Source: Wocania arenilitoris
GTDB lineage: Bacteria; Bacteroidota; Bacteroidia; Flavobacteriales; Flavobacteriaceae
Assembly: GCF_021728535.1 (NCBI RefSeq)
Contig: NZ_JAKKDU010000008.1
Coordinates: forward strand, 62,001 to 126,000
Length of the DNA: 64,000 nucleotides
Direction: 5' to 3'
Part shown: piece by piece, positions 3,766-58,306 of the stretch
How positions within the stretch are numbered: position 1 is the stretch's first letter
Layout of the letters: each line of letters begins with the position of its first letter
Notes under the pieces: generated by a model
Database searches by the model: none
What the model was told of the DNA's origin: nothing
What the model saw: only the letters and a program-made list of their open reading frames with translations
Translations under genes and position numbers: made by a program

Positions 3766-4242
3766 CTAATTCACTTTAATAATTATAGGTAATTCAAAAG
3801 CTGTTTTAACTTGTTGTCCGCGCTTTATAGCTGGAAAAATTTTGGGTATAGAATCTAAGCTTTCATATAGCAAACTTTCAATATTCGGGATTTCTTCTTT
3901 TGTTAAAGCGTTTATTTTAGCATCTATTAATTTTAACTGCCCTGTTTCAGATACTTGAAAATTTAAAACTAATGTATCGCTAATATCTTTAGTAACTACA
4001 ATGATTTCATTTTGTAAAAACCCAGAAATATGTGTGGTTAATACCTGTTGAAAACACACTTTTTTGTCTGCTTTAACAGTTAACGAATCGCATTCTGAAA
4101 AACTAGGGTACTCATCAACATCGTTCCAATTAAAAGTTTGTAGTTCTTCTTTTAAAATGGCTTCGGGCGATGTTTTTTTTATGTTAAAATACTCGCAAGA
4201 CGTAAGCACTATAAATAATAATAAAACGCAAGTTTGCCTCAT
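3766..4242 (-). CDS. Lipoprotein with a degenerate TonB-C-like domain
   Basis: 158 residues with a lipoprotein signal (lipobox LTSC, Cys16). The mature part has the layout of the TonB C-terminal-like module found elsewhere in this window: YPSFSECDS, then DKKVC, a strand NFQVSETGQLKLIDA, a helix ending SIPKIFPA and a last strand FELPIIIKVN. Sequence identity to the other copies is low, so the domain call rests on pattern and on the matching pair of cysteines. It is the last gene of a minus-strand group, 41 bases after the TPR gene and downstream of the BlaI/M56 pair. It would be anchored in the envelope; its function is unknown. Confidence 0.6.
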   Translation of the reverse strand: MRQTCVLLLFIVLTSCEYFNIKKTSPEAILKEELQTFNWNDVDEYPSFSECDSLTVKADKKVCFQQVLTTHISGFLQNEIIVVTKDISDTLVLNFQVSETGQLKLIDAKINALTKEEIPNIESLLYESLDSIPKIFPAIKRGQQVKTAFELPIIIKVN

Positions 4243-4283: not shown

Positions 4284-5426
4284 TTAATCTTCTTTCTTCT
4301 CTTCATTAAGAAACTTTTCTTCTTTAAGTATTGATATTTGATTATTAACAAAAGATATTAACTTGCTTTTTGGGAATTTTTTCTTAAAATCTTCAAAAGC
4401 TTTAATTTTAGCATCATAATCAGCATAATAAGCCTCAAGTGTTATTGCTAACTGCAAACTTGCAAACTCATTGCTGGGGTTTTCTTGTATGGCTTTTTTT
4501 AAAGCCTCAATACTCTTTTTATATTTTTTTTGTCGGTTTAAAACCGTAGCTAACCTAATATATTCAGCATCTAGTGGTTTATCTAATAACGCTAAAGCTT
4601 TCCATATATATTCTTCAGCTTTTTTAAAATCACCTAGCTCCTCATAATACGTTCCAATAACATAAATAGAGGTTGCATCCAATGGATTAAATTTTAATGC
4701 CAACTTTCGTTGTTCAATAGCTTTTTCATATTCATATAATTGTGTATAACATAGGCTTAATTTTTCATGAATAAAAGCTGATGATTCGCCCAATTCTAAA
4801 AGCTTTTCAAACCAAACTATAGCTTTTTCGTACTGCTGCCTTACATAGTAATTTTGCGCTTTTAAACTTATTAATTCTTTATTGTTTTTATAAGTTGACA
4901 AACCAATATCGATATATTTGTCTACTAATGTATTATGTCCTTTTTTAAGATGATGTTTTGCTATTCTATAAATGGCTTTTTGGTGCGTACTATCTAACTG
5001 AAACGCGCTATGAAACCTATTTTGCGCCGTAGAATCCTGTAACTGTTCTAAAACCAAACCCAACTCATAATGAAAGTTAGGGTTTTTATAATCTTTATAG
5101 ACCAATTGATTAAATATTTCTGATGCCTTTTTAAATTTTTTTGTTCGGTATAAAAATTTTCCAAAATCGTATTTTAACAGGATATTTTCGGGGTTGGTTT
5201 CTACTGCTTTTTGATAGTTTATAAAGCCCTCTTCGTAATTACCAATTGCAATATATGCCTTTGCTATTTTTTGATACACTTCTGGCGGATTATTGTATGC
5301 CTTATACTGTACAATAGCTTTACTGTAATTGCCATGAGCAAACAAACTGTCTGCAACATTTAAAACCGAAGTTTGAGCTTCGGTTTTAAAAATTATTAAT
5401 AAAAATAAAAATGTGAATCTTATCAT
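4284..5426 (-). CDS. Secreted tetratricopeptide-repeat protein
   Basis: 380 residues: a signal peptide (MIRFTFLFLLIIFKTEAQ) followed by about nine TPR units recognisable by recurring A/G-x-Y/F and P positions (YSKAIVQYKAYNNP, YEEGFINYQKAVETNP, YEKAIEQRKLALKFNP, YKKSIEALKKAIQENP). It ends in a lysine/glutamate-rich tail. TPR arrays bind peptides or partner proteins, and this one should do so in the periplasm. It starts 2 bases after the M56 peptidase gene ends, so it is almost certainly in the same operon and a candidate partner of that peptidase's periplasmic domains. Confidence 0.85.
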   Translation of the reverse strand: MIRFTFLFLLIIFKTEAQTSVLNVADSLFAHGNYSKAIVQYKAYNNPPEVYQKIAKAYIAIGNYEEGFINYQKAVETNPENILLKYDFGKFLYRTKKFKKASEIFNQLVYKDYKNPNFHYELGLVLEQLQDSTAQNRFHSAFQLDSTHQKAIYRIAKHHLKKGHNTLVDKYIDIGLSTYKNNKELISLKAQNYYVRQQYEKAIVWFEKLLELGESSAFIHEKLSLCYTQLYEYEKAIEQRKLALKFNPLDATSIYVIGTYYEELGDFKKAEEYIWKALALLDKPLDAEYIRLATVLNRQKKYKKSIEALKKAIQENPSNEFASLQLAITLEAYYADYDAKIKAFEDFKKKFPKSKLISFVNNQISILKEEKFLNEEKKED

Positions 5427-5428
5427 AT

Positions 5429-8053
5429 TTATTTATGAACTTGAAATACAATAGGTATTGAATAGGTTACATCAACTTTTTTACCGTTATGCTTACCTGG
5501 AATCAACTTTGGAATCGATTTTATAACACGCATAGCTTCGGCTCCTAAATCGGGGTGTGGTGCTCTAGATTTTTCTATTTCTATTTTTCCTTTTTTAGTG
5601 ATTTTGAAAACAACATTGATGAGTTGTCTACCTTTTAATCCTAAGCTTTCAGCTAAATCTGTGTTAAAGTTTCTATTTATGAACTTTTGAATACCAGTTG
5701 AAGTACATTCTCTTTTTTCTTTTTCGGTGGCTAAAGATTTGCATTCTGGTAATATGGGAGCTTTATCAACAATTGCAAAAGGTAATGTGCTACCTCCTAA
5801 AGTATCATCGGCATACCCAACCACAGCTACTTCATCTAGCAATTGCGTGTCTTCGACCTCAAAAACTATTGGTAGCGAATAAGGTACAGTAACTGCTTTC
5901 CCTTTTTGCATACCCGGTTTTATTTTAGGCAAAGACGAAATAACACGGATAGCTTCTGCTTCTAGAGCTGGGTGCGGACCTCTGGAACGTACACCAATAA
6001 TATTTCCTTTTTTGTCTATCTTAAAAATCACATTAATGCGCTGTCTGCCTTGTAACCCATATTCGCTTGCTTTTTTGGTATTAAAATTTTCAATTACAAA
6101 TTTGCTAAGCTTTTCGCTCATACATGATTTCTTTTCAGCATTAGTAACTAAGTCTTCACAACCAGGATAAACAGGTACATTTTCAATAACAGCAAAAGGG
6201 ACTTCTACATCTTCAATTATACTGATATTTTCACCCTTATTTACTCCCTTATTTACGCCATAGCCAACAACAACTGTTTCTTCTAGCGCCGATTTATCTT
6301 GTAGTTGAAAAATAATTGGTAACGAATAAGGCACTATTACATGTTTACCGTTATGCTTCCCTGGAGTCATTTTTGGCAACGTTTTAATAACTCTAATAGC
6401 TTCTGCCTCTAAATCGGGGTGTGGGGCTCTTGAACGAATACCTGTAACATTTCCTTCCTTGTCAATTTTAAAAATTACATTGATACGCTGTCTGCCAACC
6501 AAACCTAATTGAGTTGCTAAATCTGTGTTAAATTTTCTAGCTACAAACTTTGATATTTTATCTGATATACATTTTTTTTGTTCGTTTTGCGGTAAACCTT
6601 CACATCCTGGAAATACGGGTACTTGTTCTATAACTGCAAATGGGACTTCAACATGCTCTTTAGGCTTATGATTACTAAGACTAACACTTGGTTTAATAAT
6701 TACTTTATAATCTTTACCATCAGTCACAACAAACTCTTTATAGTGTTTATCGTTAAAAAATAATTCTTCTTTCTTTATATATTTTTCATTTTCTTCAACA
6801 GTAATATTGTCTAAATCTTTTACAACCAATCTCATAACGTCCATTTTTTTATTCTCCCAATCATATTTAGCCTCATCACTCTTTTTCCATTCAAGATATT
6901 CGTCATAAGTCATTTTTATCAAACCTTTAGATATCTTCTCCTCTGGAATATTGTTTTTGTAAGTAAAGATAAACTTGTAATACATTTGATTCTTATAATA
7001 TTCTTCTTTTGAAATTATATACTTATCACTATGAGACATATATTTTGTAATAATTTCTGATTCGGAATCATCCATTTTATCCATTTCTAAAATTTCTTTA
7101 TAAAATTTTTCCTTTAGTTGTTTATCCGTCAAGTCTTGTGTAGATACTTGTTCTTGATTCCTCTCATTTTTAATTATTTCTTGAGCTTCAGCAGAAGTAT
7201 AAACCAACATCCCAAAAACCAAAGGTATTAGTAATGCATACTTAATTAAATGAATTTGTTTTGACTTTGCTTTTGATAACATAACGATTCGTTTTTTGAT
7301 TAATGATTGTTTAAAAAATGTATTGATGAATGATATATTTCTTGTTTCGAAAACTTGAGATAATAGGTTTTGGTAATATTCGTTTTTATCTTGATGCTTT
7401 ACGGCATTAGCATCTGCAATAAACTCATGAAGCGTACGTATTCTATTTTGATACATATATACTAGCGGGTTAAACCAAAATAGTATTCGTAGCACCTCAA
7501 AAAACAATAAATCTAGTGTGTGCTTTTGTTTGGTATGAATAAGCTCATGTTTTAAAATGGCTTCTTTTTCTTCGGCTTTTATTTTTTCACCTAAAAATAT
7601 ATAATGGAAAAATGAGAATGCTGCGTTACTATTTACAAGCTCTACTAATACAATATCTCCAATAGATTGCTTTGGATTTTTTATTACTAAAACAACAATT
7701 TTAAATAACTTAAACAGAAATAAACCACAAGCAATAAAAAGCCCTATGTAAAAGACAAGCTCCCAAATAGGCATAGAATTTTGCTCTAAAGTCACCGCAT
7801 CTAAAGCAATAGTATTATTAGGATTCATACTAGATTGCCCCAAAACAACCTCGGGCAACGAAATAATGTAATTTTGAGGAACAACAGTTTTAAAACTACT
7901 TACTTTTATAAATGGCAATATTAAAGACAGAATAGCGGTTGCTAAAAGATACATTCTGTTCCAATTAAAAAAAGTTTCCCTTTTTAAAAACACATCGTAA
8001 ACAATTAAAAAGAATAATTGAAATGCAATGGTTTGTATTATATAATAAAGCAT
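5429..8053 (-). CDS. BlaR1-type M56 membrane metallopeptidase with three TonB-C-like modules
   Basis: 874 residues. N-terminal membrane domain with about five helices and the zinc-protease motif HELIH (His169, Glu170, His173), followed by LHEFIADANAV, where Glu210 is a plausible third zinc ligand. This is the M56/BlaR1 layout. After the last helix (about 270-290) comes a polar region, then three homologous TonB-C-like modules at about 471-586, 618-735 and 757-873. Each has P-x-x-P-x-C-E/K, a K/R-x-C, GRQ-IN-V-FKI and APHP-L or GPHP-L. Linkers between them carry ETVVVGYG and DEVAVVGYA, similar to the segment at the TonB box of SusC-type transporters. BlaR1 relatives sense an external signal and cleave their repressor; the signal here is unknown. 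It lies 2 bases after blaI and 2 bases before the TPR gene. Confidence 0.85.
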   Translation of the reverse strand: MLYYIIQTIAFQLFFLIVYDVFLKRETFFNWNRMYLLATAILSLILPFIKVSSFKTVVPQNYIISLPEVVLGQSSMNPNNTIALDAVTLEQNSMPIWELVFYIGLFIACGLFLFKLFKIVVLVIKNPKQSIGDIVLVELVNSNAAFSFFHYIFLGEKIKAEEKEAILKHELIHTKQKHTLDLLFFEVLRILFWFNPLVYMYQNRIRTLHEFIADANAVKHQDKNEYYQNLLSQVFETRNISFINTFFKQSLIKKRIVMLSKAKSKQIHLIKYALLIPLVFGMLVYTSAEAQEIIKNERNQEQVSTQDLTDKQLKEKFYKEILEMDKMDDSESEIITKYMSHSDKYIISKEEYYKNQMYYKFIFTYKNNIPEEKISKGLIKMTYDEYLEWKKSDEAKYDWENKKMDVMRLVVKDLDNITVEENEKYIKKEELFFNDKHYKEFVVTDGKDYKVIIKPSVSLSNHKPKEHVEVPFAVIEQVPVFPGCEGLPQNEQKKCISDKISKFVARKFNTDLATQLGLVGRQRINVIFKIDKEGNVTGIRSRAPHPDLEAEAIRVIKTLPKMTPGKHNGKHVIVPYSLPIIFQLQDKSALEETVVVGYGVNKGVNKGENISIIEDVEVPFAVIENVPVYPGCEDLVTNAEKKSCMSEKLSKFVIENFNTKKASEYGLQGRQRINVIFKIDKKGNIIGVRSRGPHPALEAEAIRVISSLPKIKPGMQKGKAVTVPYSLPIVFEVEDTQLLDEVAVVGYADDTLGGSTLPFAIVDKAPILPECKSLATEKEKRECTSTGIQKFINRNFNTDLAESLGLKGRQLINVVFKITKKGKIEIEKSRAPHPDLGAEAMRVIKSIPKLIPGKHNGKKVDVTYSIPIVFQVHK

Positions 8054-8055
8054 AC

Positions 8056-8415
8056 TTATTTCTTTTTATTAATTTCTTTTAAAACCGATTCTAGTTCGTT
8101 TAAACTAATATCATTTTTCTTAACAAAGAAAGACACCATACTTTTAAACGACCCTTGAAAATAATTATCTACTAACTTATTTATAGACTGGTTACTATAT
8201 TCTTGTTGCTGTACTAACGGAAAATATAAATGCCCTTTACCTTGCTTTTCGTAATCAACAAAACCTTTGCTTTCTAAAATCCTTACAATGGTAGATACCG
8301 TGTTGTAAGCCGGTTTTGGCTCAGGAAATTCTTCTATTATAGCTTTTACATTGGCTTTTTTAAGTTGCCAAAGTATTTGCATTATCTCCTCTTCGGCTTT
8401 GGTAAGTTGTTTCAT
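8056..8415 (-). CDS. BlaI/MecI/CopY-family transcriptional repressor
   Basis: 119 residues, typical of the family. The N-terminal winged helix begins KQLTKAEEEIMQILWQLKKA, continues through KPAYNTVSTIVRILESKGFVDYEKQGKGHLYFPLV (recognition helix and wing), and the C-terminal helices that dimerise follow. Family members repress their own operon and are inactivated by proteolysis through the partner M56 peptidase, which is encoded next. The upstream region (8416-8612) is full of perfect palindromes, including two sites matching the ACTA-N6-TAGT layout of mec/bla operators, so autoregulation is likely. Nothing here implies beta-lactam resistance: in Bacteroidota such pairs are common and mostly of unknown trigger. 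Confidence 0.9.
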   Translation of the reverse strand: MKQLTKAEEEIMQILWQLKKANVKAIIEEFPEPKPAYNTVSTIVRILESKGFVDYEKQGKGHLYFPLVQQQEYSNQSINKLVDNYFQGSFKSMVSFFVKKNDISLNELESVLKEINKKK

Positions 8416-8520: not shown

Positions 8521-8554
8521 AACTAAAAAATTAGTTTAAACTAATTTTTTAGTT
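8521..8554. promoter_or_regulatory. Two tandem BlaI/MecI-like operators forming one 34-bp perfect palindrome
   Basis: AACTA-N6-TAGTT occurs at 8521-8536 and again at 8539-8554; their centres are 18 bases apart and the pair together is a perfect 34-bp palindrome. The Staphylococcus mec operator has the same layout (TACTA-N6-TAGTA, from memory). The position in the intergenic region between blaI and the divergent DUF456 gene is right for an autorepression site. Binding is inferred, not shown. Confidence 0.6.
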
Positions 8555-53457: not shown

Positions 53458-54322
53458 ATGAAAACTTTAAAAGCCATTTTTTCTCTTATTGTTTTTTCTT
53501 TCTCTTTAATAGCCTGTGCACAAGCCAAAGATGTTATTATTAAAACCACAAAACTAAGCGACAACATTTATATGCTTGAGGGTAGAGGTGGTAATATTGG
53601 TGTTTCTGTAGGTGAAGATGGAGTTATTATGATTGATAGCCAATTTGCGCCATTAAGTGATAAAATTATAGCTACCATAAAAAAGCTAAGTGACAAAGAC
53701 ATTAAGTTTTTAGTCAATACACATCATCACGGAGACCATACTGGAGGAAACGGAAATATCTCAAAATTAGGAACTCAAATTATAGCACACGATAATGTTC
53801 GTAAATGGGTTAAAGCAAATGCAAAACAATCAGACAAGTCGTTACCTATCATCACTTTTAACGATAAGTTAAGCATTCATATTAACGGATAACAAGCTCT
53901 TATTTTTCATGTAGAAAACGCACATACTGATGGCGATGCAATGCTCTACTTTACACAAAGTAATGCACTACATACAGGAGATACCTATTTTAATGGTCGC
54001 TACCCATATATATTTAAAATCTGGCGGAAGTGTTAATGGTTATATTAATGCTATAAAAAGTGCTATGATTTTTGTAGATGAAAACACTAAAATAATTCCT
54101 GGTCATGGTAAATTATCAAATAAAACAGAATATGAGGCATTTTTAAAGATGCTTGAAACGATTAAAGCAAATGTTTTAGCCGAAATTAAGAATGGTAAAA
54201 CAGAAGCCGAAGTAGTTACCAACGCATCAATTACAAAAATTTATGATGATTTAGGATATAGTTGGAATTTTATTACCTCTGAAAAAATACGTAGTACTTT
54301 TTATAAAAGTTTGAAAAAATAA
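53458..54322 (+). pseudogene. Metallo-beta-lactamase-fold hydrolase, disrupted
   Basis: Lipoprotein or exported signal (LIACAQAK), then an MBL-fold domain with the metal site HHHGDH (His89, His91, Asp93, His94). The frame hits TAA at 53890-53892 in SIHING-stop-QALIFHVENAHTDGDAML. Past that stop it continues in frame through HTGDTYFNGRYPYI, then shifts near 54003-54015. The rest (LKSGGSVNGYINAIKSAM, IIPGHG with a metal His, to LKK at 54322) is in another frame. So there is one nonsense codon (a CAA-like position read as TAA) and one small indel. Everything else is intact, so the damage is recent. Related intact proteins are exported hydrolases of unknown substrate. Confidence 0.85.
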
Positions 54323-54324
54323 AC

Positions 54325-56433
54325 CTAATTATCAAAATACCAATTAAACAAATCGGTTCTTAATCCAAAATTAAACCAAACCGTATTGTTTTTAAATGTT
54401 GTTGCAGTAATAGCATCTGGATTAAAATTTCTTATACTAATATCAGTAAACAGCTTTAAATTTGATGCAGGATTAATTATATAACCTGCTTGCAGATTGC
54501 CATTAAAGGTTTTTGTTTTTATCCCTTGACCTACTTCAACACCATTATCAAAAGGTCTGTCGTCATAATCACGATAAACATCTCCTCCGTAGCTAAAGTT
54601 ATCTGTACCATCATTAAAATCTAATCCTCTAACACCAAAAATAAGCTTAGCATCGGCAAACCAACGTTTGTAATTGTAGCGCCCAATTAAAATAGCTTCA
54701 CTAAAATTTGCACCCCACAAATGCGCCATAGATTGATTATTATGTCCATAATTTGTAGCAATAGTATTGTGCGAATAGGTATAAGGCCTAACTCTATTGT
54801 ATTCAAACTGAAGCATTAAATTATTAACTTTAAAGGCATTAAAATATTTAACCCCAATTTGATAACCGTACTTATTTTTCCAACTTCTTTCACCCGCTTT
54901 TACATCACTTAGTGAAAATTCATCTAAAATAAATTGACTATAAATATTTACATTATCATTCCATTTATATTTTGCCGATGCCCCAAGAATGGCATTTCCA
55001 GCATCTTGACCTGTTTCAAACTCAATGGCTCTGTAAAATATTATTGGGTTTAAATAATTTACATCAAAACCTCTATCGTTTGCATTAGTCCAAATAACAG
55101 ATTCAAATAGACCTAAATTAAATCGTTTAGACACATTCCAACTTAAATAATGGTTTGCTATATATTTGGTTAAAAAGGCTCCATCTTCTGTAACTTCTGG
55201 TCTTACATCCCTTAGCCACATCCAAGTATTTGTGTATTTAATTTTCCAAAACTTAGTGTTCAACTTTAAAAATGGATGCGGACTCGCCACATCGCTTATC
55301 AACAATGAGCGGTAGCCATCGCCTATAAAATTTTTACCATGCCCAAACTGCACATTTATAAACTTAGCAGGTGCATACGATAAATAAGCTTCGGCTACCG
55401 GATAATCGTAAGAATCTGTTTTAAATCGTTTTGCAATACCACGACCAGGAATTATGGCTGGATCTGGTCCAAAAGCTTTCAAACTTTCGGCATATTGATT
55501 AACGTATTGCGCAAATCTACCTTGACTCTCAAAAACTGAAGCATAAAAATTTAATTTTTTTCCTAAACCACCTCGTACTAAAAAACCTCGCGTATTGTTA
55601 TATGTAGAACTAAATTCGGCATCGGTATCTTTTCCAACTTGTAAATCTAAAATAGGATCTAGAGTGAACCAATAATCTTTTCCTTGTAACTCAACTAAAT
55701 GTTCGTTCCAAAGTTTTCGTCCTGCCCAAGTACTTGCTTCTTTTAGCAACTTATCTTTTTCAGCTTTAAAATCGTAATATTTTGAAACTTCATCGTAGAC
55801 AAAAGGTTTTGAAGCGGTATGGCTATTAGTACCAATCAAATTCATTTGTCTATCAAATCTAGAATAATCGCTATGCGTAAAAGGAATGTTTAACTGACTA
55901 GTATACCCCTTACTTTCAAAAGCTGATAAACTTTCGTTTACTTTATCAAACTCTGATTTGGCAGCAGCTTCTAGTTTAGAAATTTCATTAATCTTTTTAG
56001 CTTCTTCTTCAGTTTGTATAGCTTCTGATTGATTTACCAATGGTATTTTTATAGCAACGGAATACTGTTTATACGTTTTTCTGCCATTATAAGTTGCCTG
56101 TTTTACCTTGGGCAAAAGGGAAAATACCCGTTTAGCTTCCTCTTTTAGTTCATTGTAAATGGCATCAACATAAACCACCTTAAATTGCCCAAGGGTATCA
56201 ACCTCAAAAAGTAGAGCAACATCGCCTTTATAATTTTCATCTAAAGCTTTTTGCGGCACTTTAAAGTTGTTGTAAATATGAGTGAATACTTTGTTGTTAA
56301 AACACTGTTGCAAAACGTCAATTTCTACACTTTCGCAATCTGGAAAAACTGGCGGTTTTTCGTATTGAAAAGCACCTTGAGAGAAGATATTATTTTGAAT
56401 TAAAAGTAGAAATAGGACAACGAATCGCTTCAT
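54325..56433 (-). CDS. remB: RemB-like gliding motility outer-membrane protein
   Basis: 702 residues. Signal peptide (FLLLIQNNIFSQ). Residues about 25-135 form a TonB-C-like module (PPVFPDCESVEIDVLQQCF, VALLFEVDTLGQFKVVYVDA, VFSLLPKVKQ, YSVAIKIPL). After a charged linker comes a large beta-barrel with Wzi-like aromatic strands (DYWFTLDPILDLQVGKD, FINVQFGHGKNFIGDGYRSL, FLKLNTKFWKIKYTNTWMW, YLNPIIFYRAIEFETGQDAGN). I recall this layout for RemB of Flavobacterium johnsoniae, which affects gliding; the assignment rests on memory of that family. It is convergent with the disrupted MBL gene, 2 bases apart. Confidence 0.65.
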   Translation of the reverse strand: MKRFVVLFLLLIQNNIFSQGAFQYEKPPVFPDCESVEIDVLQQCFNNKVFTHIYNNFKVPQKALDENYKGDVALLFEVDTLGQFKVVYVDAIYNELKEEAKRVFSLLPKVKQATYNGRKTYKQYSVAIKIPLVNQSEAIQTEEEAKKINEISKLEAAAKSEFDKVNESLSAFESKGYTSQLNIPFTHSDYSRFDRQMNLIGTNSHTASKPFVYDEVSKYYDFKAEKDKLLKEASTWAGRKLWNEHLVELQGKDYWFTLDPILDLQVGKDTDAEFSSTYNNTRGFLVRGGLGKKLNFYASVFESQGRFAQYVNQYAESLKAFGPDPAIIPGRGIAKRFKTDSYDYPVAEAYLSYAPAKFINVQFGHGKNFIGDGYRSLLISDVASPHPFLKLNTKFWKIKYTNTWMWLRDVRPEVTEDGAFLTKYIANHYLSWNVSKRFNLGLFESVIWTNANDRGFDVNYLNPIIFYRAIEFETGQDAGNAILGASAKYKWNDNVNIYSQFILDEFSLSDVKAGERSWKNKYGYQIGVKYFNAFKVNNLMLQFEYNRVRPYTYSHNTIATNYGHNNQSMAHLWGANFSEAILIGRYNYKRWFADAKLIFGVRGLDFNDGTDNFSYGGDVYRDYDDRPFDNGVEVGQGIKTKTFNGNLQAGYIINPASNLKLFTDISIRNFNPDAITATTFKNNTVWFNFGLRTDLFNWYFDN

Positions 56434-56624: not shown

Positions 56625-57410
56625 TTATTGTACTTTAAATTTAATAGGTAATGTGTAAATAACATCTACATTTTTATCGTTTTGTTTCCCTGGTGTCATT
56701 TCTGGCATTAAATTAATAACTCGAATTACCTCACCTTCTAATTTTGGATGGGGTGCTCTAGTTTTAATATTATTAACTTTTCCTGTTTTATCAATAGTGA
56801 ATTGCACATCAATTTTCTGCACACCAGTTAAACCATACTCAGAAGCAATATCATCTCCCTGAAATTTTCGTTGAATAAGATTGGTTATTTTTTTAGACAT
56901 ACACCTTTTCCTTTCATCATTATTTTTTGCTTTTTCGCACCCTGGATAGATAGGTGCATTTTGTATAAAAGCAATAGGGACTGGAACATCTTCTGGCACA
57001 GGGGTTACTTCAATATCTCCCGGATCAATTGGCGGATTTACATCATCTGAAGGTTTTTCTGGTTCATTCTCAAATGGAAGATCTGGTGTATCATTTGGCA
57101 CTTCTTCAAACTTATTAGATTGTTCTTTTTGTTTTTGTTTTACAGGTTCATCAACAACAGGTTTTAATGTTATGATTATTGGCACATCAATATAAGTTGG
57201 AGGATCTACAGGAGGCAAATCTCCATAATCATGGATAGTTGTTTCAAACTTCATTTCAAACAATCCATAAGTGGTAAGCAAACACACTATTAACCCAATT
57301 TGAAAGTAAAGGGTTGAGTTTTTTTGTAAATTTGCATCATGTTTTTGTGGTTTTTTCACGATTTGCTCATTTTGCCGAATGAGTTCGTGAGTCTTCTTTG
57401 GAATTCTCAT
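56625..57410 (-). CDS. TonB-family energy transducer (first copy)
   Basis: 261 residues. A cytoplasmic start (KKTHELIRQNEQIVKKPQKH), one helix (LYFQIGLIVCLLTTYGLF), a proline/acid-rich periplasmic linker (about 75-145) and a C-terminal TonB module (about 147-260). The module has FIQNAPIYPGCEKA, RKRCMSKKI, YGLTGVQKIDVQFTIDKTG, RAPHPKLEGEVIR, MTPGKQNDK and YTLPIKFKVQ. TonB passes the proton motive force to outer-membrane transporters. The linker has acid/proline blocks rather than the usual Pro-Lys/Pro-Glu repeat. Downstream of the second copy on the same strand, but separated from it by a terminator. Confidence 0.9.
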   Translation of the reverse strand: MRIPKKTHELIRQNEQIVKKPQKHDANLQKNSTLYFQIGLIVCLLTTYGLFEMKFETTIHDYGDLPPVDPPTYIDVPIIITLKPVVDEPVKQKQKEQSNKFEEVPNDTPDLPFENEPEKPSDDVNPPIDPGDIEVTPVPEDVPVPIAFIQNAPIYPGCEKAKNNDERKRCMSKKITNLIQRKFQGDDIASEYGLTGVQKIDVQFTIDKTGKVNNIKTRAPHPKLEGEVIRVINLMPEMTPGKQNDKNVDVIYTLPIKFKVQ

Positions 57411-57470
57411 AATTATTATAGTTTATAATGTTAATATTATAATAAAATCACAATAAGCATACCAAAAAAG

Positions 57471-57500
57471 AAATCCCGTTACAAATTTGTAACGGGATTT
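57471..57500. terminator. Perfect palindromic terminator after the second tonB gene
   Basis: AAATCCCGTTACAAA is followed at once by its exact reverse complement; on the minus strand TCTTTTTT follows. It lies 84 bases after the stop of the upstream TonB gene. Confidence 0.85.
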
Positions 57501-57510
57501 TATTATTTAG

Positions 57511-57535
57511 ATTCCTGCCTTTGCAGTAATGATAA
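57511..57535 (+). repeat. ATTCCYGC-type hairpin repeat, copy 3
   Basis: ATTCCTGC-CTTT-GCAGTAAT plus GATAA; one mismatch in the stem. It sits between the terminator and the TonB stop, in the same orientation as the other copies. Confidence 0.7.
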
Positions 57536-57583
57536 TTTCAATAGATACATCGCTACAAAAGTACCGATGAAAGACTTTTCAAT

Positions 57584-58306
57584 TTAATCTTGTACTTGGA
57601 AAACTATTGGTAAAGAATATGGAACAGTTACAGCTTTTCCTCTTTGCTTTCCTGGTTTCATTTTAGGTAGCATACCAACAACACGTTTGGCTTCTTTCTC
57701 TAAACCTGGATGTGGTGCTCTTGCACGAATACCTACTACGCTACCTGTTTTATCAATTTTAAAAATCACGTTAATACGTTGTCTTCCTGACAAACCTAAA
57801 TCACCAGCTAAATCTGTATTAAACTTTCTAGTAACAAGCTTTTGAATCTTTTCAGACATACAAGCTTTCTTCTCATTATTAGTTCTCTTTTTTTCGCATC
57901 CTGGGAAAACAGGTACATTTTCAATTACTGCAAAAGGGACTTCTATATCTTCTTCTACTTCTTCTACTTCAACTTCTTCAACCTCAACAATTTCAGTTTC
58001 TTGATCAGATTCTGTAGATTCTATAACCGTTTCCTCAACCTCTTCTTCATCCTCAACAACCTCAATAACTTCAGGAGCTGCTGGTGGCGGTGGCGGTGGC
58101 GGTGGCGTTTTTATTTGTTCAATTAGTGGAATTTCTTCCTCATCTAAATCATCTAAATTTAACTGTCCTAAATCTAGATCAGATTTATCATATGTTTTGT
58201 AGTTAATGGCATAATTTGTTAAAAAAAGCATTAAACATAAGCCGATTGCGAAATACAGCGAACTGTTTCTACCTACATTTGCTTTAGGATTTTTTTTAGG
58301 TTCCAT
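57584..58306 (-). CDS. TonB-family energy transducer (second copy), acidic linker
   Basis: 240 residues. Short basic start, one helix (LYFAIGLCLMLFLTNYAI), a block of eight prolines (KTPPPPPPPPAAPE), then about 50 residues almost entirely Glu/Val/Asp/Thr (EVVEDEEEVEETV, EVEEVEVEEVEEDI), and the C-terminal TonB module (FAVIENVPVFPGCEKKRT, KKACMSEKI, LSGRQRINVIFKIDKTGS, RAPHPGLEKEAKR, KMKPGKQRGKAV, YSLPIVFQVQD). The module is closer in sequence to the second M56 module than to the other TonB. The linker should stay extended across the periplasm by charge repulsion. Confidence 0.93.
   Translation of the reverse strand: MEPKKNPKANVGRNSSLYFAIGLCLMLFLTNYAINYKTYDKSDLDLGQLNLDDLDEEEIPLIEQIKTPPPPPPPPAAPEVIEVVEDEEEVEETVIESTESDQETEIVEVEEVEVEEVEEDIEVPFAVIENVPVFPGCEKKRTNNEKKACMSEKIQKLVTRKFNTDLAGDLGLSGRQRINVIFKIDKTGSVVGIRARAPHPGLEKEAKRVVGMLPKMKPGKQRGKAVTVPYSLPIVFQVQD

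Follow-up and report, generated by a model that had tools for sequence, protein, structure and literature searches.

A BlaR1-type M56 protease with TonB_C modules and Ton-box-like segments in Wocania arenilitoris: a candidate sensor of transporter Ton boxes

In FecA/FecR cell-surface signaling, the periplasmic end of a transporter is proposed to inform a regulator in the inner membrane. A loop in the ligand site of the sensor has been described for Staphylococcus aureus BlaR1 (PMC9834060): residues 87 to 94 of EL1 (residues 56 to 96, between helices 2 and 3) occupy the beta-lactam groove of the partner chain's sensor, displacement of this loop by the drug is the proposed start of signaling, and AlphaFold, according to the authors, placed the loop on the sensor. 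Two further papers describe the Ton box: that of BT1763 is DEVVVTG, and its deletion or mutation strongly impairs growth on levan (PMC7782687), while the canonical pairing of a Ton box with TonB is parallel, as seen for FoxA-TonB (PMC6699858). For sensors that join an M56 protease to TonB_C modules, we found no paper in the open-access literature searched, subscription journals lying mostly outside the search; the BlaI and M56 matches examined in PMC12578637 were an author initial and catalogue numbers, and the text of PMC12204202 contains neither M56 nor BlaR. Here we describe such a protein in a stretch of 64,000 nucleotides from Wocania arenilitoris (the window, to which all positions refer).

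Domain make-up and operon of the M56 protein

The features of the locus are as follows.

8521 to 8554, no strand assigned: tandem palindromic candidate operator AACTAA-N4-TTAGTT, two copies, upstream of blaI
8056 to 8415, minus strand: BlaI-family repressor (PF03965, E = 6.4e-33, Pfam)
5429 to 8053, minus strand: M56 (BlaR1-type) membrane metallopeptidase of 874 aa with three TonB_C modules (open reading frame and Pfam)
7838 to 7858, minus strand: Ton-box-like island LPEVVLG, aa 66 to 72, in the predicted periplasmic TM2-TM3 loop (EL1/L2)
7535 to 7549, minus strand: zinc-protease motif HELIH (HExxH), aa 169 to 173
6296 to 6658, minus strand: TonB_C module 1, aa 466 to 586
6245 to 6280, minus strand: Ton-box-like segment of linker 1, ETVVVGYGVNKG, aa 592 to 603 (24.0 bits)
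5849 to 6214, minus strand: TonB_C module 2, aa 614 to 735
5804 to 5836, minus strand: Ton-box-like segment of linker 2, DEVAVVGYADD, aa 740 to 750 (18.5 bits)
5432 to 5797, minus strand: TonB_C module 3, aa 753 to 874
4284 to 5426, minus strand: TPR protein, downstream gene of the operon
3766 to 4242, minus strand: predicted lipoprotein of 158 aa with a divergent TonB_C-like domain (profile built from the M56 modules, E = 9e-17)

In Pfam searches the 874-aa open reading frame matched Peptidase_M56 (PF05569, E = 1.6e-15) and, over three stretches, TonB_C (E = 9e-29). Its N-terminal part is the M56 domain, the single transmembrane anchor and proline-rich spacer of TonB being absent, and its C-terminus carries the TonB_C modules in place of a beta-lactam-binding sensor domain. 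A profile of the M56-TonB_C relatives matched BlaR1 (8exp) and TonB (5lw8) in the PDB. With a predicted structure of the C-terminal domain, the top Foldseek matches were TonB C-terminal domains, the first of them FoxA-bound (6i97_D, E = 1.8e-3). The model of a Sinomicrobium relative (L278) matched 8exq (E = 7.2e-7) and the TonB of the FoxA complex (E = 2.8e-4). As to the four transmembrane helices and outer TM2-TM3 loop of a BlaR1-type sensor, the same model showed helices and a Foldseek match to the transmembrane and protease part of BlaR1 (8exr, TMt 0.66). Modules 1, 2 and 3 are 72%, 70% and 53% identical, respectively, to the TonB module encoded at 57584 to 58306 of the same window, and at 70 to 72% identity the first two plausibly share ligands with it. 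The 874-aa protein was matched in 247 of 249 genomes sampled from the host's family, where a match may represent the M56 part or a TonB module only.

The observed operon order, BlaI-M56-TPR-TonB_C-like lipoprotein, is new to this analysis. BlaI adjoins M56 in 76 of 80 named loci, 50 of the 80 have a TPR homologue no more than 2.5 kb downstream, and 70 of the 80 M56 loci have a homologue of the 158-aa lipoprotein, which itself gave no Pfam match at 0.01. One to three copies of the palindrome precede blaI in 77 of 80 upstream regions, and the genome holds exactly two exact copies, both at 8521 to 8554. The palindrome is a candidate operator that BlaI may bind; if it does, the switch probably governs its own operon. 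Two further candidates were set aside. A BlaI regulon reaching the transporters was dropped after a search of the genome for exact copies and tandems (a single site with one mismatch is expected 1.4 times by chance in 64 kb) returned no other exact operator and no second tandem at up to 3 mismatches. The TACA-TGTA type of BlaI operator occurred in one of 26 upstream regions (L245) and not in that of the window.

Elsewhere in the window, a minus-strand gene at 54325 to 56433 encodes 702 aa, with an N-terminal TonB_C-like domain (own profile, E = 1e-22) followed by what appears by eye to be an outer-membrane barrel; it adjoins two TonB genes at 56625 to 58306. Two plus-strand open reading frames at 53458 to 54322 look by eye like one hydrolase of the metallo-beta-lactamase fold, split by a frameshift that is either real or a sequencing error.

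Ton-box-like segments in the linkers and the TM2-TM3 loop

The first-pass annotation had claimed that the linkers after modules 1 and 2 resemble the TonB box of SusC-type transporters. Its strings were indeed found at aa ~592 to 603 and ~740 to 750, and the resemblance was borne out by the bit scores listed above, obtained with an 11-residue position-specific scoring matrix trained on 28 TonB-box segments from transporters of the same genome, segments that themselves score 11.3 to 34.6 bits. The training segments came from the region before the plug: 41 Plug-domain places were found in the genome, with loci given for 30, and 28 of these were used after omission of L140 and L152, in which the stretch before the plug holds no clear box. 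By matrix score, sequence of the LDEVVVVGYG type (SusC-type TonB box) is present in both linkers, with VGY at aa 596 and 745; a transporter segment such as EDTALLDEVVVVGYGTQ (L130) can be compared with EDTQLLDEVAVVGYADD in linker 2. The boxes of the M56 protein sit between TonB_C modules, not between the N-terminal extension (NTE) and plug of a transporter.

Enrichment of the motif was observed across 176 nonredundant proteins with M56 and TonB_C. Eleven of their 70 intermodule linkers reached at least 10 bits, against 0.03 expected (mean of 100 shuffles), the other 59 staying below, and so did 8 of 176 segments preceding module 1, against 0.55 expected from shuffles; because the sequences are related, these figures speak to chance resemblance and not to independent origins. 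Tails after the last module gave 0 of 25 at this threshold, and among 42 TonB_C proteins without M56 none reached 10 bits, the best scoring 1.6. Two cases lie outside the counts: LSETVIVGYDE in L029/L232 (11.0 bits), which does not reach the linker boundary, and LDEVVLSTDAH in L255 (14.1 bits), which lies inside a degenerate module.

A second Ton-box-like element, new here, was observed in the TM2-TM3 loop and, by alignment, resembles a Ton box and is better conserved than the linker segments. In the 176-protein alignment the otherwise variable loop contains an island of L (131 of 174), P (165 of 175), E (135 of 176), V or I, two hydrophobic residues, and G (115 of 176). The six-residue core of the window's island scores 8.6 bits, at the low end of the transporters' range (7.8 to 19.0); it has P where Ton boxes carry D or E, and the loop falls outside the 70 best full 11-mer scores. 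Near-perfect Ton boxes occur in the loops of relatives (LEEVVITGSNT, LQEVVVTGESS, and LDEVVLTGTKP). Twenty of 241 loops (rows not deduplicated between sets) reached at least 8 bits, against 1.7 in shuffles. Within the family, the loop core reached at least 8 bits in 84 of 176 M56 proteins with TonB_C and in 2 of 49 without, a comparison confounded by ancestry, as it mostly sets one clade against others, and the 49 include at least one false M56 match (a TPR open reading frame, L084) and truncated frames. The other sampled genomes, mostly of other families, showed the same trend without significance (39 loops with TonB_C versus 25 without; Mann-Whitney p = 0.058, Fisher 0.16 to 0.22). The loops of L287 and L290 each carry two tandem Ton-box-like strands, for example LPEVLITNSPMQLHLLPEVVIGSES.

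Other pieces of SusC, likewise new here, are present in M56 relatives, as judged by profile matches. The SusC NTE (CarboxypepD_reg-like) ends the M56-TonB_C relatives L093, L096, L295, and L304 at scores above the Pfam cutoff and L110 below it; in L096, TIGR04056 matches with its positions 3 to 71 (E = 2.8e-19). A piece of the SusC plug lies near the C-terminus of L120 and L223 above the Pfam cutoff, and of L104 and L092 below it; the TIGR04056 matches of the latter two (positions 149 to 205, 1.5e-12, in L104; 1.1e-9 in L092) are far under the model's whole-protein cutoff. Among 85 C-termini of the named set, PF13715 was found in 4 and TIGR04056 in 5. With NTE, Ton box, and plug pieces all found, the three consecutive parts of the SusC N-terminus occur, separately, in these sensors.

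A possible Ton-box-reading switch and its rivals

From the sequence features and the analogy with BlaR1, we propose a BlaR1-type switch in which the TonB_C modules would be held by internal Ton-box mimics and would read the Ton boxes of transporters by competition, a reading to which we assign a probability of about 0.38. In a BlaR1-type protease, the beta-lactam sensor domain would have given way to TonB C-terminal modules, whose fold is the one that holds the Ton boxes of transporters; with a Ton-box-binding fold as the sensor, the BlaR1 principle would predict a loop that copies a Ton box. At rest, the mimics (one strand in the TM2-TM3 loop and the two linkers) would fill the modules of their own or a partner chain. 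Substrate-loaded transporters would expose many Ton boxes and displace the mimics, the sensor would move, and the cytoplasmic protease would cut BlaI, derepressing the genes for BlaI, the sensor, the TPR protein, and the TonB_C-like lipoprotein.

Structure models bear on where the linker boxes might bind. In an AlphaFold model of aa 455 to 874 (31 sequences, mean pLDDT 86.8) the modules are well ordered, and the last strands of modules 1 and 2 end at aa 584 and 733, ahead of boxes that begin at 592 and 740. The concern that each linker is merely a buried strand of the preceding module was not borne out, as aa 590 to 611 and 736 to 752 have pLDDT below 50 and form no strand. Judged by pLDDT and secondary structure, no box was docked on a module in two single-chain AlphaFold models (the C-terminal domain from the window and L278); in L278 the loop island (aa 62 to 74) likewise falls under pLDDT 50, and the linker box is modeled as a weak helix. 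Modeling one chain at a time, from 31 and 52 sequences, tests docking poorly, so its absence counts only mildly against it. That the L278 loop stayed undocked while AlphaFold docked that of BlaR1, as the authors of that study state, likewise counts mildly against the loop as a mimic. In the model of the window protein, both linkers look free, that is, exposed and flexible, neither buried nor docked. Parallel pairing, as in FoxA-TonB, together with the ~6 to 7 residues from last strand to box, would strain pairing with the preceding module, so the likelier partners of a box are the following module, a partner chain, TonB itself, or the lipoprotein of the operon.

In another explanation, the linker boxes are docking sites in trans for other TonB_C proteins, either the cell's TonB-ExbBD or the operon lipoprotein, which would pull or cluster the sensor so that it reports Ton activity and not transporter load. 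The apparent exposure and flexibility of the linkers, like those of the BT1763 Ton box after its NTE, would suit such docking, as would the two TonB genes within the window, the TonB_C-like lipoprotein encoded in most M56 loci, and the awkwardness of the preceding module as a parallel partner. Docking in trans nevertheless leaves the conserved loop island and the sensor's own Ton-box-binding modules unexplained, and we consider it unlikely.

Conservation among orthologues, which the first-pass annotation had made a check of its idea, held in part: the motif recurs, but in a minority of proteins, most multimodule relatives being without it. As scored with the matrix, the linker Ton-box motif is recurrent yet in the minority across M56-TonB_C proteins: 15 of 176 have a segment of at least 10 bits, in about seven groups (Flaviramulus/Snuella-like, Flavivirga, Sinomicrobium-like, Cellulophaga L285, Muricauda L304, L110, and L281) and with at least 11 state changes on a tree of the M56 domain. 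Of the 8 leaves that form the clade of the window protein itself, 5 retain a segment of at least 10 bits; VGYADD is kept in the close relatives L009, L010, L017, and L039, and only LDEVTV is left in L019 and L042. A relic, that is, SusC-type sequence acquired as a spacer and drifting without function, would account for the many relatives that lack the motif, for its decay in those last two, and for the other SusC pieces at C-termini. Drift agrees less well with the retention of VGYADD across genera in the clade, with the number of separate groups, and with a motif that always precedes a TonB_C module and is absent from tails; this explanation, too, appears improbable and ranks just behind docking in trans.

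It is very unlikely that the linker simply adds one more ordinary strand to the preceding module: it follows closely behind the last strand and is rich in beta-branched residues, but the model ends the strands before it and leaves it disordered, and many single-module homologues stop at that point without such a segment. Least probable of all is that a hydrophobic linker resembles a loosely defined motif by chance; the shortness of the motif would allow this, but the shuffles and the 42 control proteins speak against it.

Should internal Ton-box mimics indeed hold the modules, cells would have a means of sensing the demand placed on the Ton system itself, the widespread M56-TonB_C family would gain a function, and the BlaR1 principle of a ligand-mimicking loop would be seen to be reused with a protein as ligand. 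More doubtful is the extension to the flavobacterial M56-TonB_C proteins at large, as receptors that would gauge loaded, TonB-awaiting transporters through a Ton-box-copying loop and linkers and reset a self-regulating operon.

Comparison with known systems

The closest counterparts are BlaR1/MecR1 with BlaI/MecI, which share with this locus an M56 domain with HExxH, a TM2-TM3 loop, a C-terminal periplasmic sensor, and an adjoining BlaI repressor gene with a palindromic operator; in this locus the loop is a predicted one, and the sensor role and the operator are putative. The window protein has TonB_C modules where BlaR1 has its penicillin-binding sensor, and it scores 37 bits with the NCBIfam model blaR1_generic, far under the 400-bit cutoff. 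Since it lacks the sensor domain that defines BlaR1, we class it as a variant of BlaR1-type M56 sensing and not as BlaR1. Each module is like the TonB C-terminal domain (PF03544) in fold and sequence; unlike TonB, the protein joins three consecutive such domains to an M56 protease and not to the single-transmembrane anchor of the ExbBD motor. The linker segments are alike in sequence to the SusC/RagA TonB box, represented by DEVVVTG of BT1763, although they lie in an inner-membrane protein and not in an outer-membrane barrel. With FecA/FecR the proposed switch would share a signal that runs from a transporter to an inner-membrane regulator; it would differ in acting by M56 proteolysis of a repressor instead of through an anti-sigma and sigma factor, with the Ton box itself as its message.
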